This document shows, one piece after another, positions 15,635 through 58,583 of a DNA stretch of 64,000 nucleotides (the first letter of the stretch is position 1; each line of letters starts with the position of its first letter). The position numbers and the translations under genes were made by a program. Below the pieces are notes generated by a model, which worked only from the letters and a program-made list of their open reading frames with translations, made no database searches and had not been told where the DNA came from. The stretch is taken from positions 62,001 through 126,000 of IMG/VR virus record IMGVR_UViG_3300043395_003024. The stretch is one strand, 5' to 3'. The stretch is from a virus.

Positions 15635-18600
15635 ATGCCATCTGAACTGTTCGAATATAAGTCAAGTTCGCTTGGCAACTCCCTCTCATCCAAGGGTGGA
15701 AACATCAACCTGGACGAGGCTCAGGGCATAGTTGAGTGTTTCGTGGCCGGTATTGGGAATAAGGATTCGGTCGGTGACATCGTCGCAAGCGGCGCATTCA
15801 CAAAGAGCCTTCAGCGCCGTAAGCCACGCGTTGTTTGGGGCCACAGCTGGAATGACCCGATTGGCAAAGTTCTAGAGATTTACGAAGTTCCTAACACAGA
15901 CAACCGCCTACCGCTCAAGATGAAGATGGCTGGGATTGGCGGTCTTTTCGCTCGCGTCCAGTTCAACCTGAATTCAGAAAAGGGCCGCGAAGCCTTTGCG
16001 ATGGTTGCCTTCTTCGGCGAGGAACAGGAATGGTCAATTGGCTACAAGACGCTGCGAGCCCAGTTTGACCAGAAGTCTCAAGCAAATGTCATCTACGAAC
16101 TAGAGCTTTATGAGGTTTCGCCAGTTCTCCACGGAGCAAACCAGCTAACCGGAACAATTTCGGTTAAGTCGGACGAGCTCGCAGACAGAATGTCTGCAGT
16201 AATGGAAGATAGCGGAAGTGCTATCGATAAGGCCGAAATTGAGAAGCAATTGGCCGCGATTCTCGGTGAAAAAGTATCACTCATGGACGTAAACGATGAC
16301 GAGGTTACGTTCGCTCGCAGAATGCCCAACGGCGAAGTTGGCCGCTACAAGTGCGGCTTTAGTGGCAGCCGTGGTCGGTATATGTTCGGCGCCCCAGAAC
16401 CGATTGTTGTTATGCCAATGCGTAGGCCAATCGCGCCAGCGGCAAATATGCCGATGGCTGGACCTAGCATGCCTGCCAACGAGCCACAAAGAGTCATCCG
16501 ACCATCGCAGATGCCCTCAATGCCTGTGGCGATAAAGCCAGGCGAGAATGGCAATCGCATGGTTCCGCTCCCGCCAGTGGAGTACGAAGATGGTGGCAAA
16601 GACAGGGAAGAGCCAGAGTTCGACCCCAATAACCTAGACAGGGAAGAGGCCGACCTCAGGGATGCCCTTTTAAAAATTGTGAAGCGTCACGGTCGTTTTA
16701 ATGAGGATTCAACTGGTGTTTACGCGGCATACAGCTCGCCCGAGGAGAACGAAGTTGCCTCAATCGGAGTTAAGTGCGCAAACTGTGTTTTTTACCAAGG
16801 TGGAAATTCCTGCAAGATAATCGCAATGGATGTAGAGCCAGAAGGCAAGTGCAGATTTGCGGTTATCCCGAAGGGTGTCGTTAAGGGAAGCACGGCAGAT
16901 ACCAAGAATTATGAGCTCGATGAGGAGTTCGCGGAAGAGGACTACCTTGCCGAGCTTGAAGTTAAGTACCCAGGGGAACTAGCTGTTGCAGCTGTTCGTG
17001 GAGCAATAGGAAGACGCCGCAAGAAGCGTCGTAAGTTTAAACTTCTTGGCGAGTTTGGTTCAAAACAGGACGATTTTGATTTTGACGACAAGCCATACCT
17101 GTTGCCAGTTGTTCCGCAGTTTGCATTCCAGGTAAAACAGGCGCTTGACCCAATATTTGATTACCACAATGTTGACTCTTTTGTCGATGTAAACGGAATT
17201 GTCATCACATCTGGCGTTAGCTTTGAGTTGATTGAGGCAATTGACACAGCTGTCGAAAATCTAAAAAAAAAATCTCTAACTGAAAACGACATAGAGTGGA
17301 AGGCGGCTAGTTACCGCCTCGGTCGTGCTATCGGAAGTCGCCTAATTGACCGTCCAAACATCGGCGGTGGACGTACGCGTGGAAGATTCTTCACTTCAAT
17401 AGGCGCTGAAGACTTCGACCCATTTACAGCCCGTGATGCGAATCTAAACGGAATCGTTGGTGAAGGTTTGTTCCTTCGTGGTATAGCGCTAGCAACACCG
17501 GACCCCACCCCAGACGGCCCTGGCTCCATAAGGAACCCAAAGCCATCACCACGTCAGCTTTCAAAGCCGGAATCGGAAACAGTAGCCCGTATTGAGAATG
17601 CTGCCGGAAAGCTTTCATCGGGGAAAATAGAGCTAGACCTTCCACGATTTGATGACCCGGATATCGATTCGGCAGAAAAGTTTGGTGCAGCAGAGTCGCG
17701 GCGCGATGAACTTCAGGGCGTACTTGATGGTGCTACCGACCCAGAACAAATAAAGAAGCTAGAAAGAGCAATTTCAGAACTCGACAAGTACATGAACCGC
17801 GTCGAGAAGTTGGCCGAAAGCGAGATGGCTCAGTCTGAGAAGCCAAAGAAGAAGCCTGCAGCTGGAAAGGTAATAAAGGCCGGTCAGAAACTTTCTAGCG
17901 GATATGCAAAATACCTAGATAAGCCGAAATCAAAGCGTTCAATCGATGAGATAAACAAGTTTGATGGCCCGATTAGCGCTGCCTTGTCGTCTGGGAAATT
18001 GCCAGATAAAGCAGAGATTCCAGAAGATTCGCCGATACTGTCGGAAATGTATAAGCGGATGGCTGATGAAATAATCGCTGTTCTACAAGACCTGATTGAT
18101 AACCCCGAAAAGGCAAAACAATGGAAGATGCCGTGGCGAAATCCTGAAATTTTTGCCAGAAACCCAACGCGTAATCGTGTTTACCAGGGCATGAACCAGC
18201 TTGCACTTCTTCTGACTGCACAAAGTCGTGGATATACAACAAATAGATGGGCCGGAAAGACGCAGTGGCAGAAACTTGGTGGAAAACTAAAGCCAGGAGC
18301 TAGCGCACGCGGCGTTTCAATCCTCGTGCCGCGTGAGGGACGAATTCTAATGAACGCAGATGGCCAGCCGGTTGAGACTGGCCGCTACTACGTTGTTCAG
18401 ACTGTTTACAACGTCGATGATGTTGCTGGTCTGCCAAAGAAGTTCTACGAGGTTGAGGATAGCGCCATCAACCAGGAAGAGCGCCTACAGGACTTGGAAA
18501 ACGTAATTCAGGAAATAGGTCCTAAGTTTGTAGAGTCTAAAGGTCAGCAGGCTTTTTATCGCCCCATGACCGACAGCATCCACATGCCGGCGTTTGACCA

Positions 18601-21600
18601 GTTTGAAAATGCACTCGCATTTTATTCAACAGCAATGCACGAGACAATTCACTGGACTTCGCACCCAACGCGACTAAATAGAACTCTTGGCAAAGAGTTT
18701 GGTGATGAACAATATGCTTTCGAGGAGCTTATTGCCGAAATAGGTTCAGCATTTGCTCTTGGCTCAATGGGTCTCGAGCCAACAGTCCGCGAAGACCATC
18801 TTCTGTATCTAAATAGCTGGCTAAAGAAGCTCAAGTCAGACCCACTTGCGATACATAGGGCAATAGTCCAGGCACAGCAAGCAAATGACTATCTTCTTAA
18901 CCGTTCGGCGACAATGCGAAGACTTGCTGGCATACCTGACGATGAGCGTAAGGGCAAGGACGATATATGGTTCGAAGTTCCTATGCTCGCCGGCTATGAG
19001 GATATTGAGCCAATAAAGCCAACAACAACAATAACTGGCCCACTAGAGGACCTGCTTGACTCAGAAGCATGGGATGAATTTGTCCCAGATTCACCAAATC
19101 TGAGTATCGCGGAGCGCGAACTTCGTTCATACGACGTAGCGCCAAATGCGCCGTCAAAGAACAAGGCAGGAGTTGTTATTACTCCGTCCGGAGCGCTTGC
19201 AAGCGGTAAAAAGGCTGGGAAAATCAAGGGTACAAAGCCTGGCGTTCCAGAAATCGACAGAATTGCTGAAGATGTATCGCTAAAGCTTGCATTTGGTCTG
19301 GCTAATGAGCCCACAAATGAGCAGCGCGACATTATGGCTGTTGCTCTATCGCTTATCCACGGCAATAATCCTGCAATTTTAAGTGTTCTTGCTGGTGCTG
19401 GAACTGGAAAAACGACAACGCTTAAAAGCATCGCGTGGGCTCTTCAGAGAGAATTCGACCTATGGCCGGAAGGTGACCCAAGAAGGGCGGAACAGCTTGC
19501 TTACCTATCGGATAGATATGGAATTGATTTCAGCAAGATAAAACCAGAGAAGATTGCTGATGCAGTAACTGAGTTAGCAAAGAATAATAAAACCGGAAAT
19601 CTTTACTATACGGTTTTCAACACAAAAAACCAACTAGAAGCCGAAACAGAATTCCCACGAAATACGGGTATTGCTACTACGGACAAGCTCTGGCAGTGGT
19701 CGCTCCGTCTTGGTCAGGGTGACAAAAAGTATGGACCGGGCATGCGCAGAAAAATGGGCATGCTAAACAAGAGCCGAGAGAGCAAAAAGTCCATGCGTAG
19801 AAATCCGGCATGGAAGAGCGAAGAAGAGACGCCAGGCGTCGAAAAAATGATTGGAAAAAATTTCGTCAGAGAAAAATTTGACGGAACAACCGAAACGTTT
19901 GTTGGTGAGGACCCTGGTTTTGAGGCTCTTGGCTGGACAATGCTTCAAAAAGGTGACGACTTTGCTGAGCATCTTGGCCTAGAGAAATGGCCAGATGTTG
20001 TAAAAAGAAAGAAAATGAAGCCAGACGTGGATGCTTCCGGCAGGCCTATTCGTGATGAAAAAGGAAAAGTAAAGAAGTCAGAAGTAGAAGTAGAGGGTTT
20101 TGAACTTCCAAACGGAACGTTCCTTGAACTTTCCGAAATGGGCGACCTTCTATCTAACGCCCTTAAGCGCTGGGGTCTGTCCAAAGAAGAAAAAGTTACA
20201 GCACAACACTTCATGCCTCCAAAACAGAGACTTGAAGACATGGATACGCCGCGTGGAAAGGACAATCAACCCACAGGCGTTGACAGCATTCTCACCGAAG
20301 AGCAAATTCCTAAAAAATGGATTGAGGCGGTCCAGTCAATCGTGGACGAGATTGCAGATGGCGACTCTAACCTGCTACCAACAATGGAACTTGTGTCTAA
20401 ATTCTGGATGATGACAGACCCTGACCTGAGAACAGACCCAGGTTTAATTACGCACTCTTCAGCTCAAACAAGAGTAAAAGTATCCGTTCCATCATCGCTA
20501 CGCGAAGGCGATACATACGTTTATGACGGCGAAGAGTGGGTTGTTACAGGATTAACCAAAAAGGCTGGGAAAACATCAAGTGCTACCTTACGTAAAAAGA
20601 TGGCATCAAAGGAAAATCCCCTCGGTGCATTCTTGCTAGACGAGGTGCAAGACTCAAACGAGGTTCTCGAAACAGTTCTAGATAGGAATAGGGATAAGCT
20701 CCCTATTATTCTTGTCGGAGACGATAGACAGGCTGTCTATGCATTCCGCGATGCAAAGAATATTCTGGCGTCACTTGATTCAGAGTACTCACAGGACATT
20801 ACAGAGTCGTTTAGATATGGCGAAACTGTAGGTCATGCCGCAAACCTGGTTCTTGGAGCACAAAATGTTCATCTGCGTAGACAGGGTGTTAAGCAACAGC
20901 CGTGGAAGCACGTTAAGGGCCAGGCGCAAACTGTTATCAATAGGCAGTTTGACCCACTATTGCCAGAAAAAGATAGGCTCGGCAATAATCCGGTCGATGA
21001 AATAGATGATGCAACACGCCAGATATTGATAGCCGATATAGAGAAAAAATATTCTACTCCAGAGAAGAAGCTTGACCTGCTGTCACTAGATAGACCAGCA
21101 CAGGACAAGGCCTTAAAGGAGCTTAGGGATACGCTTTATGGACCAAAAGCTGGTCAAATAGTAGATAGATATGCAGAGGCCGATAAGGGCAATCTGCCAA
21201 CGATGATTCTCTGTAGAACAAACGGTGAAATAATCAACGAAGCTCTAAAGTTTATAAATATAGTCATAAATAGTAAGGCTGTTGAGCGTGATGAACGAGG
21301 CATGCCAAAACTACCTGAAGTAATTATTCCAGCTAGCAAGTGGGAGCAGCTTCTTACATTTACTAAGCACCTTGACTTCATAATGCGTTCACCTGCAAAG
21401 CAGCAAGAATACATAGCAAGATTTGGTAAGCCAGAGATGTCATCATGGCTCGGACCGATTTGGACACAGGGCACCTTGCAGAAAGCTCTCAATCAGTCAA
21501 AGTATCAACAGGCGCGCAGCGCATACAAACTGATAATGCAGCCGCCAAAGAGCGACCCAACTGCTCCGCCACTTGGCACTCGCGGCATGCTTGAACTTTT

Positions 21601-24466
21601 GCAGGGAACGATAGTTAGAAGCGTTCATGAAAAGGGCAAAGCTAAAGGCAAAGAAAAAATTGAGATAATCCCAGCTGTTTTGTTACCAGAGCGCAAAACG
21701 ATGGAGCTTGATAACTGGGCGGTTGGCATCGACCAGGTAAGAGAAATAGCCGGTAGGCAAAAGTCAGCATGGAAGTCTTCGCCAACCCAGAGAGAAAAAC
21801 TATTTATTATCCCGAATGTCGATGACACCTACAAGCAGGCTGTATATGCCGCACTTGACATAGAAGGTGGGGACGATAAGAGACCAGGAAAGCCAACTGG
21901 AAGAATAATAATAACTGGAGACGGAGTCGATACAGGTCGCCCAATCGATATGCCAGATGGGTCGCAGAGGCCCAATACTCCGACTGGTGGTCGCGGTTCG
22001 AACAACGGTAGATACCGTAGAGACCTCGAGAAAGCAATAATTAAACTTGGCCTGCAGGACAAAGTAAAGCCAATGGCTGAAGCCGAACGCGGTTTTAGAA
22101 AAGAAGGCGAAGCTCAGCGCAGGCTTTATGACGGTTTCGTCATTGAAGGCGCAACGATAGAGGAAAGCACTGAGATTCTAGGACAATTAGCACAAGCGCT
22201 TCGAGATTCCGCAAAGACCGCAGGTGGAGATGTTGAAATTACAACAATGCAGCTTTCGAAGGGTCGCGAATCTAGATTCGTTGCAGTTGCGGAGGACCTC
22301 AGCGACCCAATTTCAAATATCCCGGAAAAACTGGCGCAGGGTGAAGCTGGCGTCAGCTATATGGAAGAAGGCAACCTAGTTCACGTTGCATTCTCGCGTG
22401 CAAAAGAACAGCTCGACCCGGGCACTGCCGGATTTGTTTACTGGCTACATGACCAGCGCACAAAAGCGGTGCGAGAAGCCATAACGCAGGCTGTAAAAGA
22501 TGGACATATTCCGCCAGAGCTCGATAAGGGCGCATTTAGCGACGATGGCGGCATTGAGTTGCCGGAATGGTACAAAAAGCTCAACTCTATGTCTCTAGAG
22601 GAGCTAAAGGATGGATTCCCGGCTCGTCCAACAGACAAAAAAGAAGACGAAGACATAACTGTCCCATCACCTGTTGATGGTGGAGAACCCGATGATTTTG
22701 AACCAATCGTTACGGAAATTGACGAAGATGATTACGAAATGGGGGATACTGACGTCCCGAGTGACGAAGGTGAAAAACTACCAACATTCGATGATGATGA
22801 AGAAATTATGGACGATGGCGAACTTCCGGAAGTCCCAGGCATGCGCCTATCCAGTGGCGCGACTCCTGGTGCGGATAGGCGCATAGCTCGCAGAAATAGG
22901 CGCATAGCAAAGAGCAATTTGTACTCAAATAGCATGAGTGCACAGCAGCTTGCTGGAATAAGAATTAGCGGCGACCCAAATTCAAGCAAAAATAGACAAG
23001 CATTAGAGTTCGCAATGCAAGCATGGGACGGTGTACGTCGTCGTGGCATAGCTATTGACGTTGACGACGATACGCTTTCGGTAGCAGAGCGTCAGTCTAG
23101 GACGCGCGGTGCCATGCAGAGTGTCGGTGCGGCCATGAGGGGGCGCAAGGATAGGGTCCGCATTGGTAAGGTTAGTGATAATGGAAGAAATGAAAATCCA
23201 TCGGCGGAAACATGGATGCTTTCTGTTGACAAGCTTGCTGACACAATAAGGATTCCAACAGAATTTACGTCAAGAGAAAACTCCGAGGGTGGCTCGACAA
23301 TCCGCTGGACCCAGTCGCGCCCTGCAACGAGGGAAGAAATTGGTAAATTGCTTGGCCTTAGCCCTGCCGACGCAGAAAAGCTAAAGGACCCAGATGCAGG
23401 CATAAACCATGACGCAGTACGTCTTCTCATTGCGGAACTAGGCAAACAGGAAGACCTTCCAGCATGGAGATACTTTGCTCCTGTTAGCGCCGATGAGGCA
23501 AGGCGCATAACCCCTTCACCCGAAGGCGATATTGCGGAAAATATCCCTCAGGTAGATTTGGCTGCAGAAAATGCTGGCCGTGCAAACATGCGAGATAGGT
23601 TTATTATCGAAACCTTCGGCAAAGACGCATATCCGCACTGGTTTGACGTCGAGGAAAACCAGTCGATGACGCCAGATGAGTACGTCCAGCTTGGAGAGAT
23701 AAGTGAAACGTCTAAATTCCGTGCCTCTGGTCGCTTCTACCCAGATAGCGCAATCAAGGGCGACTCGGAAGCAGAAGTTGACCTTTACGGCGAATCACTT
23801 GACGCGCTTGTACCAGCAGAGGGTGCAGTAGATGCAACAGGCGATGTGCTGAGAAACGACAAGACTTCAATAGAAGATTTCGACCTTGACTCTCTGATTG
23901 ATTATCTAGGAATAGACAAAAAAGAGTGGAAGAAGGGCCTGCAGGAAAGACTTTCTGCAGCTTTTGGCACTGATTCGGTCGGAATCAACGATGAATGGAG
24001 AAGAAAAGGCATCCCAACAGCGACGGTTGCCCACATGATTAGAACGGGCGTTCTGCCAGATGCAGGGTCGGTATGGAAAGAGGCAGATGCCGGGCAAAAA
24101 TTCGACGACGAGATGAAGAGGCCAAAGTATGCGGTCTACGAGGCTTTGACTGAATTTATTGACAAGAGCTTCCCTAATTCCAGACTCAATAACAGAGAAA
24201 ACAGAAACAAGATAATTGGCGCCACGGACATGGGGTACACCCTGACCAACGCGGCCAAGAATCGCGGTTCTGTCTGGAGCCCTGGGAAAGGGAACGAGCC
24301 ACGGTTCTCTCGCGGAGAAATGCAATCAATGGTTGACAGGTTCAATGAAATATTTGGAACTAACCACACACTTGATGACATCTTCAGCGACGAGCAACTG
24401 AGAACGGCCAAGGAAAGAGTCGAGTCCGGGAATACCCTTTCGGGCAAGAAAAAGCCAAAGGCTTAA
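15635..24466 (+). CDS. Giant polyprotein 1: prohead protease - zincin (ArdC-like) - UvrD-like helicase
   Basis: One open frame of 2943 codons. Residues 1-200 are an HK97-type prohead protease: 'VVWGHSWNDPIGKVLEIYEV' with His70, 'EEQEWSIGYKTL' with Ser134, and 'LYEVSPVLHGAN'. Residues ~375-410 hold four cysteines starting 'CANCVFYQGGNSC' (HiPIP-like). Residues 561-575 carry 'LGRAIGSRLIDRPNIGGG', repeated in polyprotein 3. Residues ~785-1100 are ArdC-like, with zincin H-E-T-I-H at 1002-1006. Residues ~1190-2300 are an SF1 UvrD/PcrA-like helicase: Walker A 'AGAGTGKTT' at 1253, D-E-V-Q-D at 1669, 'VGDDRQAVYAFRDA', and 'HVAFSRAKEQ' near 2250. LSSG motifs at 660, 753, 784 and 2405 and LASG at 1188 fall at domain borders. 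Such fusion of a capsid protease to a helicase is not typical. Residues 2405-2943 are of unknown function. Confidence 0.9.
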   Translation: MPSELFEYKSSSLGNSLSSKGGNINLDEAQGIVECFVAGIGNKDSVGDIVASGAFTKSLQRRKPRVVWGHSWNDPIGKVLEIYEVPNTDNRLPLKMKMAGIGGLFARVQFNLNSEKGREAFAMVAFFGEEQEWSIGYKTLRAQFDQKSQANVIYELELYEVSPVLHGANQLTGTISVKSDELADRMSAVMEDSGSAIDKAEIEKQLAAILGEKVSLMDVNDDEVTFARRMPNGEVGRYKCGFSGSRGRYMFGAPEPIVVMPMRRPIAPAANMPMAGPSMPANEPQRVIRPSQMPSMPVAIKPGENGNRMVPLPPVEYEDGGKDREEPEFDPNNLDREEADLRDALLKIVKRHGRFNEDSTGVYAAYSSPEENEVASIGVKCANCVFYQGGNSCKIIAMDVEPEGKCRFAVIPKGVVKGSTADTKNYELDEEFAEEDYLAELEVKYPGELAVAAVRGAIGRRRKKRRKFKLLGEFGSKQDDFDFDDKPYLLPVVPQFAFQVKQALDPIFDYHNVDSFVDVNGIVITSGVSFELIEAIDTAVENLKKKSLTENDIEWKAASYRLGRAIGSRLIDRPNIGGGRTRGRFFTSIGAEDFDPFTARDANLNGIVGEGLFLRGIALATPDPTPDGPGSIRNPKPSPRQLSKPESETVARIENAAGKLSSGKIELDLPRFDDPDIDSAEKFGAAESRRDELQGVLDGATDPEQIKKLERAISELDKYMNRVEKLAESEMAQSEKPKKKPAAGKVIKAGQKLSSGYAKYLDKPKSKRSIDEINKFDGPISAALSSGKLPDKAEIPEDSPILSEMYKRMADEIIAVLQDLIDNPEKAKQWKMPWRNPEIFARNPTRNRVYQGMNQLALLLTAQSRGYTTNRWAGKTQWQKLGGKLKPGASARGVSILVPREGRILMNADGQPVETGRYYVVQTVYNVDDVAGLPKKFYEVEDSAINQEERLQDLENVIQEIGPKFVESKGQQAFYRPMTDSIHMPAFDQFENALAFYSTAMHETIHWTSHPTRLNRTLGKEFGDEQYAFEELIAEIGSAFALGSMGLEPTVREDHLLYLNSWLKKLKSDPLAIHRAIVQAQQANDYLLNRSATMRRLAGIPDDERKGKDDIWFEVPMLAGYEDIEPIKPTTTITGPLEDLLDSEAWDEFVPDSPNLSIAERELRSYDVAPNAPSKNKAGVVITPSGALASGKKAGKIKGTKPGVPEIDRIAEDVSLKLAFGLANEPTNEQRDIMAVALSLIHGNNPAILSVLAGAGTGKTTTLKSIAWALQREFDLWPEGDPRRAEQLAYLSDRYGIDFSKIKPEKIADAVTELAKNNKTGNLYYTVFNTKNQLEAETEFPRNTGIATTDKLWQWSLRLGQGDKKYGPGMRRKMGMLNKSRESKKSMRRNPAWKSEEETPGVEKMIGKNFVREKFDGTTETFVGEDPGFEALGWTMLQKGDDFAEHLGLEKWPDVVKRKKMKPDVDASGRPIRDEKGKVKKSEVEVEGFELPNGTFLELSEMGDLLSNALKRWGLSKEEKVTAQHFMPPKQRLEDMDTPRGKDNQPTGVDSILTEEQIPKKWIEAVQSIVDEIADGDSNLLPTMELVSKFWMMTDPDLRTDPGLITHSSAQTRVKVSVPSSLREGDTYVYDGEEWVVTGLTKKAGKTSSATLRKKMASKENPLGAFLLDEVQDSNEVLETVLDRNRDKLPIILVGDDRQAVYAFRDAKNILASLDSEYSQDITESFRYGETVGHAANLVLGAQNVHLRRQGVKQQPWKHVKGQAQTVINRQFDPLLPEKDRLGNNPVDEIDDATRQILIADIEKKYSTPEKKLDLLSLDRPAQDKALKELRDTLYGPKAGQIVDRYAEADKGNLPTMILCRTNGEIINEALKFINIVINSKAVERDERGMPKLPEVIIPASKWEQLLTFTKHLDFIMRSPAKQQEYIARFGKPEMSSWLGPIWTQGTLQKALNQSKYQQARSAYKLIMQPPKSDPTAPPLGTRGMLELLQGTIVRSVHEKGKAKGKEKIEIIPAVLLPERKTMELDNWAVGIDQVREIAGRQKSAWKSSPTQREKLFIIPNVDDTYKQAVYAALDIEGGDDKRPGKPTGRIIITGDGVDTGRPIDMPDGSQRPNTPTGGRGSNNGRYRRDLEKAIIKLGLQDKVKPMAEAERGFRKEGEAQRRLYDGFVIEGATIEESTEILGQLAQALRDSAKTAGGDVEITTMQLSKGRESRFVAVAEDLSDPISNIPEKLAQGEAGVSYMEEGNLVHVAFSRAKEQLDPGTAGFVYWLHDQRTKAVREAITQAVKDGHIPPELDKGAFSDDGGIELPEWYKKLNSMSLEELKDGFPARPTDKKEDEDITVPSPVDGGEPDDFEPIVTEIDEDDYEMGDTDVPSDEGEKLPTFDDDEEIMDDGELPEVPGMRLSSGATPGADRRIARRNRRIAKSNLYSNSMSAQQLAGIRISGDPNSSKNRQALEFAMQAWDGVRRRGIAIDVDDDTLSVAERQSRTRGAMQSVGAAMRGRKDRVRIGKVSDNGRNENPSAETWMLSVDKLADTIRIPTEFTSRENSEGGSTIRWTQSRPATREEIGKLLGLSPADAEKLKDPDAGINHDAVRLLIAELGKQEDLPAWRYFAPVSADEARRITPSPEGDIAENIPQVDLAAENAGRANMRDRFIIETFGKDAYPHWFDVEENQSMTPDEYVQLGEISETSKFRASGRFYPDSAIKGDSEAEVDLYGESLDALVPAEGAVDATGDVLRNDKTSIEDFDLDSLIDYLGIDKKEWKKGLQERLSAAFGTDSVGINDEWRRKGIPTATVAHMIRTGVLPDAGSVWKEADAGQKFDDEMKRPKYAVYEALTEFIDKSFPNSRLNNRENRNKIIGATDMGYTLTNAAKNRGSVWSPGKGNEPRFSRGEMQSMVDRFNEIFGTNHTLDDIFSDEQLRTAKERVESGNTLSGKKKPKA

Positions 24467-24504
24467 ACTTAATAAAACGGGCAGAAGTAATAGATGTTGC
24501 TAAT

Positions 24505-24534
24505 TCACGCTCCTATAGCGTGATAGGTTATAAT
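24505..24534 (+). promoter_or_regulatory. Inverted repeat and candidate -10 before the acidic scaffold-like gene
   Basis: TCACGCT (24505-24511) pairs with AGCGTGA (24517-24523) around a 5-nt loop, followed by TATAAT (24529-24534). The hairpin could end the polyprotein 1 transcript while TATAAT starts a new one for the gene at 24595. No clear -35 is present at 17 nt. Confidence 0.4.
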
Positions 24535-24594
24535 TTAAAGACAATTAATGGTTAATGGTCCATCCGGTCATTTCCCTGCACTCACGGGAGTTGT

Positions 24595-26196: not shown

Positions 26197-26210
26197 GAAG
26201 GGGACGCCAA

Positions 26211-39701: not shown

Positions 39702-39721
39702 TAGAGGCTGAGTAGTGGGGT

Positions 39722-39765
39722 AACCCCCGGGAGTAATCGCTCAATGCGGTGAAACCGGGGGTTTT
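39722..39765 (+). terminator. Rho-independent terminator after the capsid gene
   Basis: AACCCCCGG (39722-39730) pairs with CCGGGGGTT (39755-39763) and is followed by TT. It starts 20 nt after the major capsid stop codon and closes the head operon. Confidence 0.7.
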
Positions 39766-39802
39766 ACCTTTATGGACGACAATATGTGGGAAGATGGTGT
39801 GT

Positions 39803-41936: not shown

Positions 41937-41960
41937 GACAGCAGTTTATACATAAAATGG

Positions 41961-42033
<73 letters not shown>

Positions 42034-46524: not shown

Positions 46525-46550
46525 CCTCCGGTAATTCATGGGAGGGCCAG

Positions 46551-46886
46551 ATGAAAGCAATTAGTCGCATAGACGAACTTCCACGCGGAGGTGACTGCGC
46601 TGGGCATGACCCCGACATTTGGTTCCCGATGGCCGATAAATCAGAGCCCGGCGAATTCTCCCGAAAAATCCGTGAGGCCAAACTAAACACAGAGATTGCC
46701 AAGAAAATCTGCTCAACTTGCCACATCCGGCAGGAATGTTTGTCCTACTCGCTTTATCACGAAATGTTTGGAATATGGGGTGGGGCGACAGAGCGGGAAC
46801 GTCAGAAGATTCGTAAACAGCTGAACATTGTTCCCATACCACGCATACCTGTTAATCTGCTTTTCCTCTCATCGCAGGCAAATTAA
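46551..46886 (+). CDS. whiB: WhiB-family transcriptional regulator
   Basis: A 111-aa WhiB-like protein with GGGAGGG upstream. The four cluster cysteines are visible: one in 'RGGDCAGHDPDIWFP', a C-x-x-C in 'AKKICSTCHIRQECLSYSLY' and the last Cys there. The turn 'GIWGGATERERQKIRKQ' with the G-[IV]-W-G-G signature and basic tail completes the family. It holds a [4Fe-4S] cluster and works with sigma factor to change transcription. WhiB is confined to Actinobacteria and their phages, so this is the best host clue in the window. It overlaps the primase gene start by 1 nt. Confidence 0.93.
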   Translation: MKAISRIDELPRGGDCAGHDPDIWFPMADKSEPGEFSRKIREAKLNTEIAKKICSTCHIRQECLSYSLYHEMFGIWGGATERERQKIRKQLNIVPIPRIPVNLLFLSSQAN

Positions 46887-49702: not shown

Positions 49703-49722
49703 TTGGCCTTTATTTGTAATGG

Positions 49723-49728
49723 TATTAT
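49723..49728 (+). promoter_or_regulatory. Leaderless -10 element before polyprotein 3
   Basis: TATTAT is followed by 8 nt and the ATG at 49737. No Shine-Dalgarno precedes this ATG. The only -35-like sequence is TTGGCC at 49703-49708 with a short 14-nt spacer, so the promoter is tentative. Confidence 0.4.
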
Positions 49729-49736
49729 TTATTTAG

Positions 49737-52700
49737 ATGTCTGCAGATAATCAAGAGTTTCACATTCCCTTTGAGGAATCTCGTCGCGGTGCAAATTCAA
49801 GCCCGGAAAAGAAAGCTGCCCTAGGAAGACTTGGCCGCTATCTTGGCTCAAGAGCTATCGATAGGCCACGAATTGGCGACGGTCACCGTGATAGAAGACG
49901 CGGAAGGGACCATGGATTAAACATAGACCTGCCGACCGGCGGTAGACCGGGAAACAGACGCCCAACCGGTAGCCGCCTAGACCCAGATAATGATGGCTGG
50001 GCAGACGAGGGGACAACTAAGCCGGTATGGGTTGGCATTGGCGGTGCTGAAAATCGCAATACCCGAGCGTCAGGTACGAGAATGGCGGAAGAGCCAGACA
50101 CGTCGAGAACGCTTTCTTCAGGGAAGAAGTATCAGGAGATTGTTGATTCCCAGCCACCCGTGTCTGACGAAAAGAAAAAACTTGCATCTGAGTTTATAGA
50201 CGATATAAAGCAGGGTGAATTTTTAAAAGAAGACGTATACGAGGAAGAAAAAGGTCCTCGCCCACCACGGCCGCCTGGAATGCCGGAGCCAAAACCGTTA
50301 ATGGTAATCCAGGACAATGAAGACAGGAAGCTAGAAAAACAGCGTGTCCGCGATTTGTTGGCTGAGCTTTTTAAAGGTGAAATGACACTTGATGAAGACA
50401 TTATTATTACCACCGACGATGGGAAAAAAATAAATATAGGCAACAGGGTATTGATAGACATTGCTCCTAGCAGTGACTCGAAATACTCTACTTCTGTAAA
50501 AGTTCATAAGGCTAACGATGCGGATATCGCTGATGCCAAAGAGCTATATGGTGATACATTCGAACCGGGCGACATGCTGACCGAGGTTCAGCTTGGGTTT
50601 TTGGTTAGACCGCTTCCAGAGTACGAAAAAGAACTCATCGAATCATTAACGGACGAAAATAAAAAATCATTTCTCTCCTATGAAGATGGACGTTTATCGC
50701 TAGCACGCGCATATAGAACATATATCAATGTTTCTAATGACGAAAAAAACCTGGGATTAATTTCTCATGATTCATTTTATGTTCTTGGCATGGCTCAGGG
50801 CCAGGGGATAGGTTCGGCGTTTAATGCCAGAAATGAAAAACTATATAACGAGCTTGATGTTGCTTCGATATATACACACGGCCATTCAGGCAAGGGGGCA
50901 CGCGGCGCTGTCCATTGGCCCAAGAATGGATTTACGTGGGCTGGAGAAAACGACAAACAGAAGTTCTTATCGATAATCGACAAGGCCATCACGGAGCAAC
51001 CAGAAATATTCTCTGCGGAAGATAAAAAGAAAATATCTTCTCTATATAGAAAAAATCCAGATACTGGGCTTTTTGAAACAGAAGCAACAGCCGAGGAGCT
51101 TGTCGACTTCCCCGCCGCATATGAAGTATTTGCGGATGAAGAAGCACAGATAATGTACTCAAGGCCGCTAAAACAGCTCGCAGTGGCATCCTCGGGCCGT
51201 CTATCGTCCGGCTCAACTAAGCGTAGCTCTCGTGGAGTCCACGTATCAGAGCTGTACGACGGCGACTATGGCACGTGGGAAGAGGGGGCATTGCTCACTC
51301 CAGAATCACTATACAGACTCATATCTAGAGTGTTTGAAAAAAACGATATAGATGCGTCTTTGCCTAAATACGATGGAGCTCTTGAAAAAATAACTGAGTA
51401 TAAAGATTTTGGGTCAGTAATTAATGACTCACTAAGGCTGGGTTACACATTTGATGACCCGCGGTCCCCCAACCTGTACGAATATGCGTCTATGCAGCGG
51501 CTCCTAATGGACAACAGAATAACCGCCGGCATAACGTTGTATAGGTCAATCGCGAATACGCCAGAAATTGCATCGCTTAAAGAGGGTGACACATTTGGCG
51601 ATAGGGGCTTCCAGAGCTTTACAGTGATGGCCCCAGGCCAATACTCTGGAATGGGAGACAAAAGGCCAATAGTTCTTCGCTTATTAACAACAAAGAACAC
51701 GCGTGGCAGATACATATCTAGACGCCCAAATGACTATAACCTAGAAAACTTTGATACCCGGAAGCCTCTCGACGAAAGATATTTTGGAATAAATGAACAC
51801 GAAGTATTGCTGCCTGCTGGTGCAACATACAAGCTGGTTAAGAAGACGCAGACTGATGATGGACGTGAAATCTGGGACGTCAAACTTTCCGGTCAAGGCA
51901 AGCTCAGTTCTGGGGCAAAAGAAGTAGCACTAGATAATGTTGATTCCAATACGCTAAGTAGCGGGAAACCACCACGTCACCCAAGAACGCCAACGCTTGG
52001 TGCATTTATCGGTACTGCTGATGAAGAATTCGCAGACATAAAATCGTGGGACGAGTTTAAGAAGCTGTACGACGACAAAGAAGTTATATTTTTTGACTAT
52101 GAAACAACCGGATTAGTTTTTGACGAATTCGGGAAAGAGATTAGTAAAGGTGCGCCAGTCCAGTTCGGTGCCGTGAAAATAAAAAACGGCAAAGAGGTCG
52201 AAAGAATAAATCTGTTCATGAATCCTGGAGAGCCACTCGGTGAGTGGTCTAGGAATAATCTCAAAGATAAAGACGGAAATCCACTAACAGATGAATGGCT
52301 GGGCAGCCAGATATCTATAGACGAAGCACATAAGCAGCTGATTGAGTTTGCGGGCCCAGAAGCAATATTTGGCGTTCAGAATGCCACATTTGATAAGGGA
52401 GTTCTTGACGGCGTTCTGGAACAAATGGGTGAAAAGTGGCGCCCATCTGGATACCTGGACACGAGAGAAATAGCTTCCCTAACTCTCCCAAAGTGGACCC
52501 CGGAAACGGATGACGGTCCGTTCATGCTTGACAAAGAAGGAAATAAAAAGCCATCTAGTAGCCTTGCTGCAATAACCGAATATCTCGGAGTAAACCTCGG
52601 CGATGGCCACCATAACGCTGACTCAGATGCTTTTGCAACAAGCCAAGTAATGCGCCGGATTATTGATGGGGCTATCGAAAAGAATTGGCCGACAGATGCT

Positions 52701-55700
52701 CTGAATAAACAAAAGCGCGATTCGCTGCATAAGCAAACAGTCGACAAATTTAATGAAGAAGTAGCCCAGTTTGAAAAAGACAAAGCTTCGTATTTCGAAT
52801 CACTTTCATCAAATTCTGAGTCGCTTTCATCTGGTCGCAACCGGCCGGTCATTCAAATCAAGCCAACACAGGAACAGAAGCCAACAGAGCCAGGTAAGCG
52901 CGCGGTCAAGGGCTATGGCCAGCCTGATGCATCCGGAAAAGAAGTACGCAGAACCAACACCAAATGGCTAGCTGGGATGACTCCTGACGAAATCGCGCAA
53001 GTGGTTGTCCCAACCAGCGACGAACAGCGTTTTGAAATGTGGGCTGATGACATAGCCGGTGATACTTGGCGCACAAATCGTAAGTGGAGAAAATTCCTAG
53101 AAAAGTATTATTCGGAACTAGGCAAAGCTGACAATTCTCTACCTATTGATTATTCCCCAGAGTCGGTAAAGGCAGCACAAGACCTTGTTCGTGGGCTACT
53201 TGAGTCGTCCCCGCAGATGAGGTGGATGTTCGAGAACCATGGCGCCCCCCTGATAACAGTGTTTTCACGCGAAGCTGTAGATGCTTACGAAAACAACGGG
53301 GATATGAAACAGCGCATGGAGCAGCTACGGATTCAGCGCGGGGTAGAGAAGACGCCATTCGTTAGTGGGCTCGCAGTGCGCGAATACGGGCTCATTGGAT
53401 TTACACCGCGAGCAATAATTGATAGGGAGTCGTTAACGACATCCGAAAAGGGCGTATATCCAATTTCACTAAATCCAGACAGGCTCCCAGAACCGCGCGA
53501 TGCACATATGGACAGAAGCCTTGAGGGCACACTAGTGCACGAATATGGCCACTGGCTCCACTATCGCGCCATATGGGATACGGAGACAAATGGGGCATCC
53601 GGCAAGGCGCGTTCGTACTACGGAAATGGCGATTTAAGGGACCCTAAATACACCGCAGCACTCGATGTTGCTGAGGAATATGCAAACCCCGATACGGACA
53701 ATGAAGCAATAGAAATATATACGCAGTTTGTTGACCTGACTGGTCGTGACGCCGAGGAAATGTTTAGGGCAAATCCGGACAAAGCGCTAACTGCAACATC
53801 TTATGGAAATGTCAATAAGCGCGAAGCAATAGCTGAGGCGTTTGTTGCAATAATGCACCCAAACAGAGAAATGGCAAAGCGCGCTTTAAGCAAAAAATTG
53901 CGCGATGACATTTACACCCTTGCTGGGGTAGATAAAGATGACCTTCCGTGGGATAGACGTGCGGACGGGCGTCCGACAATAAGACTTTCTTCTGGGGCTA
54001 CGCAAAAACCAGAGCGCGAGAAGCGCAGGGGACGGATGGCCAGGGCGCTAAGACAGCTCATAGGCGGGGACGAGGCTGCCGAAGAACCAGAGAAGACTCA
54101 GGAGCCATACACATTCGAGGCCCCAGAAAGGCCGGAAGGCCTAGCATCCTTTGCTACAGGACCATCTGAGCGCCTGCGCGCCTCGCTTCCAATACCCTCA
54201 GAGGAGGATTTAACTGCGGAACTAGAACATGACGTGAGGGCAATGATTCTTGACCCAGTTATCGAGGGCCTATCCACACTTGATGTAACAGGGTTTGGCG
54301 TAAGCATGTTTTCATCCGAGGAGGATAGAAAAGCTAGCTCCTCAGCAAAGAGAATGATTGCGTCAAATATTGCAGAAACAGCAAAGATTGAACCGCGTGA
54401 ATTCATTAAATCGTTCTCTGAAGAATCAATTAAAGAAAGCGGTCTAGATTTAGCTGCTCAACGAAGATTTTTCCATGCGGCTGCAAATTTCAGGGCACTA
54501 AAAGGAATATTTGATGCCGTTGACAATCTTCCAGAAAATGCAACTGAAGAAGAAAGGCGTGCTGCCGGAAGGTTTGCTATTGACAGGTCCTCTGGCGCGG
54601 TGGTGTCCGTAGAGAAGCATGACAAAATAATCCAAAAGAGGTTCTGGTTTGACGAAATCATAGATGAGCTGGAAAAACGCTCATACGAGGACCTGTTCGG
54701 CGACAAATGGAATGAACTAACAAACATTGCGCTAGGCGACGAGAAGTCAATATTGACTCCATACTTGATAACGCGTCTTGGTGGAGACGAAATCAAAAAA
54801 GACATGCTCAATTTTGGCCTCCAAATAAGGACAATGTTCAACGATTTAATAGCGGAGATGAAGGGCGCTAACGGCGCCGACCGTAAAGACCCGCTAACTG
54901 GAAGACCATTGAAAGACGGGGATGGATTAGCCCTAATGTTCTCTCCAATGGGCGAGATTGACCCACGCACAGGAAAGCCTGGGATGGCATTGATTTCTAA
55001 GGGTGGCTCAATAAGTGACCAGTACGCAAGGGATTTCAAATCACTTATCCGTGATGGAAAGATTGTTCCAGAGCTAGAAAGAACAGATGAGCAACACAAG
55101 GCCTACGACAGACTTTACGTAAATTACGGAGCGAAAGATGACTACCTGGAGAGGGTGGCAGCTGCTGGATTATTTGTTGTTGACGCAACAAATGTTGATT
55201 CCCCAGAAACAAAAGAATTATTAAAAAACTTTTTGATAAATAGATTGCGGTTTATTGCCGGCAATGCAGAGGATTATAAAGCGCGTTATGAATACAAGAG
55301 CGGTATTTCATTTTTCGATATAAATTCTCCGGAAGGGATAAGAGAGGCGCGGTTAGCAATAGTTTCCGACATCATCCATACATGGGCAATTTCTTCCAAT
55401 AACTCAAACCCTGTAGCCATGGCAATACAGCACGAAGCACGAAAAATGTTTGGGCTGGACGATGCAGTTGGTTGGTACGGAGGCGTGCGTGGCAAGAGAA
55501 ATGACATTCTCTACGATTCGGCTATACCGATTGAGCGGCGTTCAGAGTTTGGCGACCTTGCTTTTGACGATACCCCAGAACTTAGCGAAAAACAGTCAGA
55601 AGTGATTCGCTCTGTAGTGAAGGCAATATACGACGCTACGCAGCATTACTACAAGTCAAAAGGAATTACGCATCTTGGTGTATGGCGAGGCATGAAAGCC

Positions 55701-58583
55701 ACGCCACAAATGGCAGTCGGAAGAGGAGAGATTGCCGAAAGAGAAGTGGCTATGCGTCCGCTTTCGTCGTGGACAACGAGCAGCACTATGGCCCAGGCTT
55801 TTTCAACATCGCTCGCTGCCGCTAAAAAACCAGGGATAGATGCGCTAGAGGAAGCTCAGGCTGTATTTGATTCAAACGTCCTCATGAAGGCATACATTCC
55901 TGTAGAACAAATATTCTCAAACCCACTAACCGGATTTGGCTGCCTCGGAGAGGACGAGGTTGTAGTGCTTGGTCGTCCAACAAAGACGTTGATGATTACT
56001 CCTCCGGCTAATTTCCTTCCGGAAATGCCATCTGATGGCGAAGGGACGGAAGGTGCTCGCGAAGTCATCCAACAAACACTTGATATTGCTACAAACAGAG
56101 ACAAGATTACAAACGCCGCATATAGGGAATTGCGTAGGACGGGATTTGACAAATTCAGCAGTGGTCCAACGCGTAATGATTCAGAAAGACTTTCGTCAGG
56201 CGCCAGACTGTCCCAGGTCACGGAAAAACTACCGATAGAGGGAGAGCTTAGCGTAGCTGAAACGACCGGAGAAACGGAAGGTGGCATATCCAAGATTGCA
56301 TTTGGAAAAAGAATTGCCGCAGTACTTGAAAAGACACTTGGAATTACTCTCGATGACTATCAGAGAAAAACAATTCAAGATATAATGCCAAATCTTCTTA
56401 AAGCGCTGAACAAAAGAAGGCTTCAGGAAGTGAAGCCACACCCCGCGTTCAGTGATACAGGAAGACAATTACTAGACTCAATATCGATAAGCATCGCTGC
56501 AGACGGTATACCCTTCGTGTCGGCTGACCCAATCCCGCAGATAGCGGAACACATACCAAAGAAAATTGATTGGAGAACAGTGGAACTTCCTTCGCGTAGT
56601 TCGTTGCTTCCAATCCTTGACAGGGCAGTGGCCGGTTCGCTGTTGTTTGACGACGAAAAGAAAGAATGGTTAGATGTTTTGGGCAACGCTGTTGCAAGAC
56701 AAGCTTCAGTAAATGGTGAATCAGTTCTCCAATATGTAGACGAAGCGGCAAAAGCTAAATTCCCACTTTTGGAAGCTATAGCACCAAAGGGTTATGTACT
56801 ACCATCCGACGCAATAGGGAATAGCGCCCTCCAGCGTGATGTGCTGCCCGGGATATATGGCGAAGCATGGCGTAAACACAGCGAATTTATGATGGAGCTG
56901 GCTGCAAAAGCTGGCGCAGCGATGGGTGACAATTCCCTGTTTGATGGAACGAAAAACAGAAGAGATTCCAGTTCTTTTGTTGAGTCGTACGTCGGAGGAA
57001 TAGAGGACCCTATCTACTTCAATATGGGCCTATCTGGAAAGGCGCTTCAGGCCCTCCACGACCTATTCGGACACCTTGGTACTGGCCGCGCATTTGACAG
57101 ACACGGAGAATGGGCAAATGACATTGCCATGATGTCAATGGCGGACCACCCCGACTCTCCGCTATCCGACTTAGAGAAGCTTGCTGTAAAGCATTTGCAC
57201 TTCCAGTTATATGCAGCAAGAAGACTTGGACGCTCACGGCGAGATGATTCTGGCGACCCCGGCTTCATACATGCAGTGACGGATACGTTTGGTATAAGGG
57301 ATGGCGAGCTCAGGGGGAGGCGGGTTTCGCTTGTTTATGCAGGCGACTTCCGAACGGCAGCCGAGGAGATGGAGAGGGTCTCGATTAACAACAAGCTGTC
57401 ATCAGGCAGAAAGAAAATTCAAGATGCGTCAAAAGACGATATAGAGCTAGCCGTAGCCCAGGACATTATCGGCCATAGTGAATCACGAGCCAGGCGATTC
57501 AAGCCAAGCAAATCAACTCGCTTATCTTCTGGGAAGGTTATTAAATATAACCTGATTGAAGCGCGCATGAAGGCCAGCGATATGAGGATTACTTTCAATC
57601 GTGACCCGGAGAGAGTTGCCGCGGTGAAAGCAACGCTCACCAAGGGCTTTATGGGCGGCTTTACCGTCGAAGTCGACAGGATGGATGACATAAAAGAAGG
57701 TATAGCCATAGCCAGAAATAAGCACGGCATGAAAGTTGACGCCGTAGCAGATTTTGACGCTGAAGGTAATCCGTCTGACGAGCTAGTAGAAACCTTCTTG
57801 TCATGGATGGACTTCCATGGGCCTAAAACGTTTGCAAACCCAAAGCAGGGGGCAGACAAAACAACAATCGGCGGATGGGTTTCCGATGGGACAGTCTACC
57901 TTGATGTTGTTGACGTTTATCCAAACAATGAAGAGAACCTTTCCAGGGCTGCCGACATGGGGCTCCAGGAAGACCAAATAGCCGTAACCGACCTGAACAA
58001 GCTTTGGGAATTGCTTGGACGAAATGAAGACCCAAGCCCTGCATTTATTGACTCTGGTGGCACTGGTGGATTCACCCTAGACGAGGAGTCGGTAAGAAAA
58101 GTTAGTGCCGCACTGAGCGAACTTAAGTCAAACAAGTTCAATACTGGCTCTTCGCATCTCAAACGAATTGGTAACACCAGGAAATTTACCGAGGGCCCAA
58201 TAACTGGAGCTCGTAGGGTCAGGAATACAGATTTATCCACAGGTGAAACCAATGATTACTGGGTAATTTCCGGAGCGGACGGAATGGTAAAAGTATTTAC
58301 GCATGAACAGTACATCAAGGTAAGGGACGGAAAAATACAGGGCCTATTTGACAAAATGTCAAATCCTTCTGACATTCTCAGAAGCATGTTCGAGGCTGAG
58401 AAGTTGAAGCCAGCGGCCACGATGTCTTTCGGAAGTAGGCGTACGGTTGGCAAGCCGACGATATCCAAGGAGCATAAGGGTCGCGGTCTGGCTGCGGCGA
58501 TGGCAAATCTATATGGATTTGCAAATGGCCTAAATAATGTCGGAGTTCAAATGGGCGACAAGGTTGTCGCGGCTATGGCGTGA
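49737..58583 (+). CDS. Giant polyprotein 3: GNAT-like - ADP-ribosyltransferase - DnaQ exonuclease - zincin - ADP-ribosyltransferase - unknowns
   Basis: A 2948-codon frame. Residues ~29-46 repeat the 'GRYLGSRAIDRPRIGDG' motif of polyprotein 1. Residues 126-489: GNAT-like ('VLGMAQGQGIGSAFNARNEK', near 357). 489-723: ADP-ribosyltransferase with R603 ('LYRSIANTPE'), Q626-S-F-T and E687-x-E689 ('INEHEVLLPAGATYKLV'). 740-1030: DEDDh exonuclease with D787-x-E789 ('FDYETTGL'), 'NATFDKGVL' and 'GHHNADSDA'. 1030-1417: zincin H1268-E-Y-G-H with 'REAIAEAFVAIMHPN'. 1417-2152: second ADP-ribosyltransferase, R1984 ('GVWRGMK'), 'SSWTTSSTMAQAFS', E2072-D-E2074. 2152-2554: unknown domain with 'HDLFGHLGTGRAFDRHGEW'. 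2596-2948: unknown. Nine exact LSSG motifs mark the borders. Confidence 0.9.
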   Translation: MSADNQEFHIPFEESRRGANSSPEKKAALGRLGRYLGSRAIDRPRIGDGHRDRRRGRDHGLNIDLPTGGRPGNRRPTGSRLDPDNDGWADEGTTKPVWVGIGGAENRNTRASGTRMAEEPDTSRTLSSGKKYQEIVDSQPPVSDEKKKLASEFIDDIKQGEFLKEDVYEEEKGPRPPRPPGMPEPKPLMVIQDNEDRKLEKQRVRDLLAELFKGEMTLDEDIIITTDDGKKINIGNRVLIDIAPSSDSKYSTSVKVHKANDADIADAKELYGDTFEPGDMLTEVQLGFLVRPLPEYEKELIESLTDENKKSFLSYEDGRLSLARAYRTYINVSNDEKNLGLISHDSFYVLGMAQGQGIGSAFNARNEKLYNELDVASIYTHGHSGKGARGAVHWPKNGFTWAGENDKQKFLSIIDKAITEQPEIFSAEDKKKISSLYRKNPDTGLFETEATAEELVDFPAAYEVFADEEAQIMYSRPLKQLAVASSGRLSSGSTKRSSRGVHVSELYDGDYGTWEEGALLTPESLYRLISRVFEKNDIDASLPKYDGALEKITEYKDFGSVINDSLRLGYTFDDPRSPNLYEYASMQRLLMDNRITAGITLYRSIANTPEIASLKEGDTFGDRGFQSFTVMAPGQYSGMGDKRPIVLRLLTTKNTRGRYISRRPNDYNLENFDTRKPLDERYFGINEHEVLLPAGATYKLVKKTQTDDGREIWDVKLSGQGKLSSGAKEVALDNVDSNTLSSGKPPRHPRTPTLGAFIGTADEEFADIKSWDEFKKLYDDKEVIFFDYETTGLVFDEFGKEISKGAPVQFGAVKIKNGKEVERINLFMNPGEPLGEWSRNNLKDKDGNPLTDEWLGSQISIDEAHKQLIEFAGPEAIFGVQNATFDKGVLDGVLEQMGEKWRPSGYLDTREIASLTLPKWTPETDDGPFMLDKEGNKKPSSSLAAITEYLGVNLGDGHHNADSDAFATSQVMRRIIDGAIEKNWPTDALNKQKRDSLHKQTVDKFNEEVAQFEKDKASYFESLSSNSESLSSGRNRPVIQIKPTQEQKPTEPGKRAVKGYGQPDASGKEVRRTNTKWLAGMTPDEIAQVVVPTSDEQRFEMWADDIAGDTWRTNRKWRKFLEKYYSELGKADNSLPIDYSPESVKAAQDLVRGLLESSPQMRWMFENHGAPLITVFSREAVDAYENNGDMKQRMEQLRIQRGVEKTPFVSGLAVREYGLIGFTPRAIIDRESLTTSEKGVYPISLNPDRLPEPRDAHMDRSLEGTLVHEYGHWLHYRAIWDTETNGASGKARSYYGNGDLRDPKYTAALDVAEEYANPDTDNEAIEIYTQFVDLTGRDAEEMFRANPDKALTATSYGNVNKREAIAEAFVAIMHPNREMAKRALSKKLRDDIYTLAGVDKDDLPWDRRADGRPTIRLSSGATQKPEREKRRGRMARALRQLIGGDEAAEEPEKTQEPYTFEAPERPEGLASFATGPSERLRASLPIPSEEDLTAELEHDVRAMILDPVIEGLSTLDVTGFGVSMFSSEEDRKASSSAKRMIASNIAETAKIEPREFIKSFSEESIKESGLDLAAQRRFFHAAANFRALKGIFDAVDNLPENATEEERRAAGRFAIDRSSGAVVSVEKHDKIIQKRFWFDEIIDELEKRSYEDLFGDKWNELTNIALGDEKSILTPYLITRLGGDEIKKDMLNFGLQIRTMFNDLIAEMKGANGADRKDPLTGRPLKDGDGLALMFSPMGEIDPRTGKPGMALISKGGSISDQYARDFKSLIRDGKIVPELERTDEQHKAYDRLYVNYGAKDDYLERVAAAGLFVVDATNVDSPETKELLKNFLINRLRFIAGNAEDYKARYEYKSGISFFDINSPEGIREARLAIVSDIIHTWAISSNNSNPVAMAIQHEARKMFGLDDAVGWYGGVRGKRNDILYDSAIPIERRSEFGDLAFDDTPELSEKQSEVIRSVVKAIYDATQHYYKSKGITHLGVWRGMKATPQMAVGRGEIAEREVAMRPLSSWTTSSTMAQAFSTSLAAAKKPGIDALEEAQAVFDSNVLMKAYIPVEQIFSNPLTGFGCLGEDEVVVLGRPTKTLMITPPANFLPEMPSDGEGTEGAREVIQQTLDIATNRDKITNAAYRELRRTGFDKFSSGPTRNDSERLSSGARLSQVTEKLPIEGELSVAETTGETEGGISKIAFGKRIAAVLEKTLGITLDDYQRKTIQDIMPNLLKALNKRRLQEVKPHPAFSDTGRQLLDSISISIAADGIPFVSADPIPQIAEHIPKKIDWRTVELPSRSSLLPILDRAVAGSLLFDDEKKEWLDVLGNAVARQASVNGESVLQYVDEAAKAKFPLLEAIAPKGYVLPSDAIGNSALQRDVLPGIYGEAWRKHSEFMMELAAKAGAAMGDNSLFDGTKNRRDSSSFVESYVGGIEDPIYFNMGLSGKALQALHDLFGHLGTGRAFDRHGEWANDIAMMSMADHPDSPLSDLEKLAVKHLHFQLYAARRLGRSRRDDSGDPGFIHAVTDTFGIRDGELRGRRVSLVYAGDFRTAAEEMERVSINNKLSSGRKKIQDASKDDIELAVAQDIIGHSESRARRFKPSKSTRLSSGKVIKYNLIEARMKASDMRITFNRDPERVAAVKATLTKGFMGGFTVEVDRMDDIKEGIAIARNKHGMKVDAVADFDAEGNPSDELVETFLSWMDFHGPKTFANPKQGADKTTIGGWVSDGTVYLDVVDVYPNNEENLSRAADMGLQEDQIAVTDLNKLWELLGRNEDPSPAFIDSGGTGGFTLDEESVRKVSAALSELKSNKFNTGSSHLKRIGNTRKFTEGPITGARRVRNTDLSTGETNDYWVISGADGMVKVFTHEQYIKVRDGKIQGLFDKMSNPSDILRSMFEAEKLKPAATMSFGSRRTVGKPTISKEHKGRGLAAAMANLYGFANGLNNVGVQMGDKVVAAMA

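Follow-up and report, generated by a model that had tools for sequence, protein, structure and literature searches.

The 64,000-nt stretch of viral DNA analysed here (the window; positions 62001-126000 of the 145-kb IMG/VR virus record IMGVR_UViG_3300043395_003024, G000 below) encodes three giant proteins in which a short motif built around the tetrapeptide LSSG recurs at module borders. Across related phages these borders stay marked, the letters of the motif change in concert from lineage to lineage, and the tape-measure protein carries the motif of its own phage. Judging from the sequences, we think it likely that a phage protease of evolving specificity cuts these polyvalent polyproteins at the motif sites. 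The three open reading frames (ORFs), which have no internal stop codons, are:

15635..24466, + strand: polyprotein 1 (P1), 2943 amino acids (aa); N-terminal S78 protease, ArdC-N + MPTase-PolyVal, UvrD-like helicase and uncharacterised modules
26211..33686, + strand: polyprotein 2 (P2), 2491 aa
49737..58583, + strand: polyprotein 3 (P3), 2948 aa

An earlier note on this DNA had listed 18 LSSG tetrapeptides in the 8,382 residues of the three giants, together with LASG at residue 1188 and LSSK at residue 17 of P1 and LSSN at 1023 and FSSG at 2140 of P3, and all of these were found where the note had placed them. LSSG is the most enriched tetrapeptide across the three proteins, with 0.26 copies expected from composition, in agreement with the note's estimate of well under one by chance. 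The residue before it is R (9 sites), K (4), T (2), S (2) or A (1), exactly the set claimed, and the residue after it is mostly so (K 7, A 5, R 4, S 1), with a single Y. The codons used for LSSG differ from site to site, which argues for selection on the protein and not for a DNA repeat; a DNA-level repeat or recombination site was rejected on the same ground. Outside the giants, just two LSSG in the window fall in likely genes, both ordinary ORFs (46886-48730 on the + strand and 181-1635 on the - strand), and a few more lie in short non-genic frames. Taking the 145-kb record as a whole, 21 of the 24 [LF]SSG occurrences fall in proteins longer than 1,400 aa, which account for 22% of its proteome; the two of these that lie outside the window are both in the tape-measure protein. 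LSSK at P1-17 was considered as a self-cleavage site; orthologues do not conserve it, and it is unlikely to be a site.

The earlier note had taken the motif for the recognition site of a prohead protease, and P1 is indeed headed by an HK97-type domain of that kind:

15728..16159, + strand: Peptidase_S78 prohead protease domain, P1 residues 32-175 (Pfam E 1.7e-11, 45 bits against a cut-off of 21)

IMG/VR holds several hundred relatives of this domain; in cultured phages its identity to the window domain is at most 44% (Gordonia). We sampled about 150 S78 loci and nine long phage records, these relatives being metagenomic contigs, and searched de novo for repeated gapped 4-mers, with motif classes then assigned by hand from the output. 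Most lineages repeat a short motif of their own in their giants, which we call a dialect. In the clade of the window this is LSSG with a lineage-fixed preceding R, S or G ([RK]LSSG, SLSSG, GLSSG), or FSSG. Other lineages use [DE]GFASRG (in G005, 21 GFAS against 0.24 expected), RxGLASxS (in G008, 24 GLAS against 0.35 expected), ISGRM (in G007, 13 ISGxM against 0.06 expected), LGSRS (15 copies of LGSR in L294) or RGMASR (11 copies of RGMxS in L344), and there are also LRSSG (L326), ITGxM (G006) and PSGSM, GPxGxM and AGM types. A small residue or R, then L, F or M, then small residues is a pattern shared by most of them. Cleavage motifs of the T4 gp21 and phiKZ type read (L/I)xE or (S/A)xE; the de novo searches, which gave LSSG, GFAS, GLAS and IxGxM, returned no such motif ending in Glu. 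Mapped onto the S78 tree, the 18 motif classes require 20 changes, close to the minimum of 17 and half of what shuffling gives (39.8).

The position of the motif was examined for 43 domain copies whose borders were fixed independently of it (rows from the window being excluded), against a null of 5000 random motif placements in which disorder is not modelled. The phage's own motif lies within 45 aa upstream of the domain in 29 of the 43 copies (null mean 6.2, maximum 17), and a single motif falls inside a domain where 31.1 would be expected (null minimum 14), so that the note's central claim, that the motif marks domain borders, is borne out. The marking is specific to the dialect: in LSSG-type phages 16 of 26 borders carry the own motif and two carry that of another dialect, in GFxS phages nine of 12 carry the own motif and none another, and in IxGxM phages both borders (2/2) carry their own. 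In BLAST comparisons between phages of different dialects, likewise, module ends adjoin the motif. Individual distances given below come from a listing that includes some motif-derived borders, unlike the count of 29 of 43.

The modules and sites of P1 that bear on this comparison are:

17612..17623, + strand: LSSG site P1-660, retained in close orthologues
17891..17902, + strand: LSSG site P1-753
17984..17995, + strand: LSSG site P1-784; the ArdC module starts 21 aa downstream
18044..18907, + strand: ArdC-N + zincin metallopeptidase (MPTase) module, residues 804-1091 (Pfam 1.3e-16 and 2.6e-40)
19196..19207, + strand: LASG variant site P1-1188, separating ArdC-MPTase from the helicase; S1190/G1191 (nearly) invariant
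19226..22489, + strand: UvrD-like helicase module, residues ~1198-2285 (Pfam 2.1e-9, PHROG 2.1e-24)
22847..22858, + strand: LSSG site P1-2405

Across 25 orthologues of P1, S786, G787 and G1191 are invariant and the linkers around them are variable. An AlphaFold model of P1 1-1200 places sites 660, 753 and 784 in low-confidence stretches and 1188 beside one, which is weak evidence because 48% of the residues are of low confidence.

The ArdC-MPTase module, which in the window lies between sites 784 and 1188, has a homologue at about residues 3030-3320 of a giant in L294, between LGSR motifs at 3013 and 3415. Its upstream motif is LSSG in G000, G001 and G003, GFASL or GFASR in G005 and L265-L274, GFSSR in L284/L289 and LGSR in L294, at similar distances from the module (LSSG 21 aa in the window, GFASL 24 aa in G005, LGSR 22 aa in L294), and its downstream border is usually motif-marked too. 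The exonuclease module sits in P3 in the window; in G006 and G007 it belongs to the P2-type giant. The motif upstream of it is LSSG at 3 aa in the window, ISGRM at 11 aa in G007 and ITGFM in G006. The same module thus occurs in different giants, each time beside the local motif, which indicates that a moved module wears the dialect of its host phage. The earlier note had said that its reading would suffer if relatives lacked the motif at homologous borders; the borders stay marked, and LSSG itself gives way to the letters of the relative's dialect; this switch is stronger evidence than plain conservation.

In P3, the note had described every recognised domain as lying between two sites, and this is the arrangement found (ADP-ribosyltransferase between 489 and 723, exonuclease between 740 and 1030, zincin between 1030 and 1417):

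50112..50123, + strand: LSSG site P3-126
51201..51212, + strand: LSSG site P3-489
51384..51851, + strand: ADP-ribosyltransferase module (Pfam ADPrib_exo_Tox 8.4e-8)
51903..51914, + strand: LSSG site P3-723
51954..51965, + strand: LSSG site P3-740; the exonuclease starts 3 aa downstream
51963..52793, + strand: DnaQ-like exonuclease module, residues 743-1019, ends from BLAST high-scoring segment pairs (Pfam RNase_T 1.7e-9; PHROG 1.3e-19)
52824..52835, + strand: LSSG site P3-1030, with the degenerate LSSN at 1023 alongside
52911..53966, + strand: zincin-like module, HEYGH at residue 1268
53985..53996, + strand: LSSG site P3-1417; the zincin module ends 8 aa before it
56154..56165, + strand: FSSG variant site P3-2140
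56190..56201, + strand: LSSG site P3-2152
56343..57146, + strand: module P3 2203-2470, homologous to residues 2396-2622 of the GLAS-dialect giant in G008
57396..57407, + strand: LSSG site P3-2554
57522..57533, + strand: LSSG site P3-2596

The tape-measure protein is encoded away from the giants:

G000:C1:56027-60838 (L261/L262), other strand: tape-measure protein, ~17 kb upstream of the giants and unrelated to them in sequence

In G000-G008, tape-measure proteins carry their own dialect at two homologous places, residues ~36-50 and ~580, for example KLSSGRG/ALSSGGR in G000, RFSSGDR/KLSSGHK in G002, EGLASRG/GFASSGG in G005, LTGAMGR in G006, LAGRMGE in G007 and GLASVNR/GLASATP in G008. In 17 of 27 phages the first 100 tape-measure residues contain the phage's own motif class (shuffled mean 0.9, maximum 4 in 500 shuffles), and in two they contain another class. 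This suggests two candidate processing sites in a tail protein and, since the tape measure carries the dialect, a reader whose action in trans extends beyond the polyproteins and the prohead. The dialect switch and the tape-measure result count for more, in our view, than the border position taken alone, because linkers attract any motif that is tolerated.

In the mechanism that we favour, a virion-carried (polyvalent) protein arsenal would be made as three long polyproteins, with folded modules joined by linkers, and each linker would hold a recognition site [R/K/T/S]-[L/F]-[S/A]-S-G-[K/R/A]. A phage-encoded protease would recognise these sites in trans and separate the proteins during virion maturation, and the same protease would trim the tape measure at two places, near residue 36 and around 580; the products would presumably be packaged and later injected. 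Site and reader would drift together within each lineage, so that all sites of one phage would change in step and each lineage would come to have one dialect. Somewhat less firmly, we consider it probable that a large family of tailed dsDNA phages, most of them environmental, follows an RNA-virus-like polyprotein strategy, in which shuffled modules of ejected proteins are carried in chains of 1,500-4,900 aa and are cut, along with the tape measure, by a phage protease, with more than ten lineage dialects changing in concert.

The S78 protease of P1 appears the most likely cutter, with about an even chance of being so, and the zincin of P2 is the main alternative. The S78 domain is found in all dialects, and H70, S134 and H166, which we take to be its catalytic Ser/His residues, are invariant in 42 sequences covering all of them. 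Its structural model has a pLDDT of 70; the 146 fold matches in a viral library at E<=0.001 are largely prohead proteases, and the list of PDB folds consists mostly of herpesvirus proteases (assemblins), which are weak matches (E 0.16 for the best of them). No solved structure matches the domain by sequence. S78 leads among the candidates because it is universal, keeps its Ser/His residues, heads P1, and because head proteins are trimmed by the prohead protease in SPN3US and in phage P1 (PMC5694885, PMC10052503, PMC12810830). The classic S78 substrate, at its delta-domain junction, is the capsid protein:

38343..39701, + strand: HK97-fold major capsid protein (Pfam 1.4e-42)

Several observations weigh against the favoured mechanism, some of them against S78 as the reader. 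Fourteen of the 43 upstream borders lack a motif, a few lineages among the roughly 150 S78 loci have no clear motif, and cultured phages that carry S78 or large head proteins (those of Gordonia, Brevibacterium and Microbacterium) show no repeated motif. Between phages whose motifs differ, S78 itself keeps 66-93% identity, and the columns that might explain an L-to-M or L-to-F shift of dialect (residues 52, 60, 141 and 154) are weak and not convincing. The capsid has LSSRE near its expected delta-domain junction, and this junction does not track dialect: the G006 contig (L134) and L144, both of the I/V-x-G-x-M dialect, share a QLTSRE junction with some LSSG phages. As LSS/LTS-RE occurs in most LSSG phages, also in two phages of another dialect, and is missing in others, we discarded the junction as proof of S78 specificity. 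The capsid tree fits the motif classes as well as the S78 tree does when the same 23 contigs are used for both, so that comparing the two trees, tried as a discriminator of the cutter, establishes lineage fidelity and not which gene reads the motif. Finally, the P2-type zincin is as universal as S78, with HExxH at residues ~470-600 of the second giant in 9/9 full records, and the attempt to exclude zincins by absence fails, each full record having one. Of the note's proposal that a prohead protease does the cutting, then, the presence of the domain stands; the role as cutter is not established, given an equally universal zincin, the conservation of S78, a capsid junction off-dialect and the motif in a tail protein.

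The same facts lend some support to a different cutter. A zincin metallopeptidase inside the polyproteins (P2-type, ArdC-linked or P3) might cut the sites, perhaps after injection, with S78 maturing the capsid only, a reading that we regard as possible and clearly less probable than cleavage by a phage protease in general. Zincins diverge far more than S78, as a reader of changing specificity might, the S78 domain and the capsid junction being conserved across dialects; ejection, not head assembly, is the fate common to tape measure and polyproteins (ejection being taken from general knowledge); and zincin autoprocessing is proposed in sections of Iyer et al. 2017 (PMC5512222). On the other hand, ArdC-linked zincins are missing from G006-G008, where the motifs are still present, so that only the P2-type zincin would fit.

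Two further readings dispense with cleavage. The motif might be a docking signal, a short linear motif borne by each module, by which a phage chaperone or portal component sorts ejected virion-internal proteins into the particle, which would equally let motif and reader drift together and would suit its occurrence in giants and tape measure, all proteins expected to be ejected; we hold this to be unlikely, since one copy per border, often 3-25 aa before the domain, exceeds what sorting of a single chain needs and the tape measure goes to the tail, not the head. Much more improbable is the idea that the motif is neutral, as a flexible linker, or a site of DNA-level recombination spread by module shuffling. 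Modules are indeed shuffled between positions and giants with their borders at the motif, but codons vary between sites, a shuffled module takes the dialect of its phage, and neutral linkers would neither stay invariant amid fast change nor turn up in the tape measure.

Several known systems come close to the proposed one. S78 here belongs to the same domain family as HK97 gp4 and likewise adjoins a portal gene; the classical gp4-type protease is small, stands alone and cuts the capsid delta domain, whereas the S78 domain in the window heads a 2,943-aa polyprotein. RNA-virus polyproteins (picornavirus 3C-type) hold several enzymes per chain with short shared sites, and site and protease co-evolve by lineage. 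The giants resemble them in the number of enzymes per chain, the short common site and its lineage-wise variation, with cleavage here being inferred, and differ in that the virus is a tailed dsDNA phage whose proteases and domains are of other kinds.

Trimming of ejected head proteins by prohead proteases, at short motifs, has precedents (PMC5694885, PMC10052503). In phiKZ-like maturation, too, a short motif directs one phage protease (SPN3US gp245) to several internal proteins of the head, but the cuts identified there release N-terminal propeptides, unlike the sites between enzymatic modules of 2,500-4,900-aa chains and the lineage-dependent motif found here (PMC10052503). Phage P1 Pro trims DarA, an anti-restriction head protein, by a single N-terminal cut, in contrast to the many modules to be separated here (PMC12810830). 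Closest are the polyvalent proteins, for which sections of Iyer et al. 2017 propose processing by embedded peptidases, with an explicit analogy to RNA-virus polyproteins, and describe giant chains mixing ArdC-N, zincin MPTase, ADP-ribosyltransferase (ART), nuclease and helicase domains beside portal and terminase genes (PMC5512222). Unrelated enzymes likewise share a chain in the window (S78, ArdC-N, MPTase and UvrD helicase in P1; ART, exonuclease and zincin in P3), and a portal gene (13404-15503) lies directly upstream of P1. In those sections of the account, however, assemblin-like peptidases are always C-terminal, where S78 is N-terminal here, and no repeated border motif is found, where here a lineage-specific motif runs over several giants and the tape measure (PMC5512222). 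Neither this motif nor dialects of this kind turned up in the literature searched, most subscription papers and preprints lying outside it.

Processing of polyvalent giants had been suspected before. With a border code one could predict mature products from the sequences of a family that counts hundreds of members in IMG/VR and divide unannotated giants into foldable modules, and the code would supply more than ten naturally occurring protease specificities on closely related proteins. If the proposed cleavage is true, these phages would be a clear DNA-phage case of multi-chain polyproteins whose cleavage code co-evolves, and one maturation step would link virion-internal with tail (tape-measure) proteins.

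The zincin-like domain of P2, rival to S78 as processing protease, and the sites and modules that follow it are:

27783..28448, + strand: zincin-like domain of P2, HESAH at residue 603, rival candidate processing protease
30144..30155, + strand: LSSG site P2-1312
30447..30458, + strand: LSSG site P2-1413
30564..30575, + strand: LSSG site P2-1452
30777..32060, + strand: module P2 1523-1950, homologous to residues 1832-2229 of a G005 giant
32277..32288, + strand: LSSG site P2-2023
32652..32663, + strand: LSSG site P2-2148; the C-terminal module begins 10 aa on
32673..33650, + strand: C-terminal module of P2, residues 2155-2480, conserved (BLAST between dialects)

Module P2 1523-1950 is a candidate ParB-like module, by a DGHHRW motif read by eye. 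Giants of G005 (G005:C1:93698-103153) and G008 (G008:C1:28355-37690) contain three zincin (HExxH) modules in tandem with motif sites between them, homologous to the single zincin of P3.

One further ORF lies between the first two giants:

24595..26196, + strand: 533-aa ORF between P1 and P2, without the motif

The C-terminal domain encoded by this separate gene of the window is fused to the S78 ORF in Gordonia phages (GMA6, L001:15585-17039), and in DalanDe (L004:14937-19838) the protease occupies the C-terminal third of a 1,633-aa ORF. A free-standing gene in G007 (G007:C1:62932, 118 aa) is 60% identical to P1 residues 324-418, an apparent gene fusion or fission. At L401:10001-10594, the S78 match crosses an in-frame stop codon (start-site artefact, intron or recoded stop).

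The capsid gene is followed, at window positions 39699-39790, by two stop codons and a terminator-like stem-loop, with an in-frame RLSSG just past these stops; this RLSSG, at 39708, is probably a chance reading of the terminator-like stretch. Collagen-like GATG/GPTG repeats are strongly enriched in the whole records of G000, G001, G002 and G008 (66 GATG in G000). Four tRNA genes lie in the window, for Val, Met and Ser and, on the opposite strand, Arg (62843-63878, 41958-42033).
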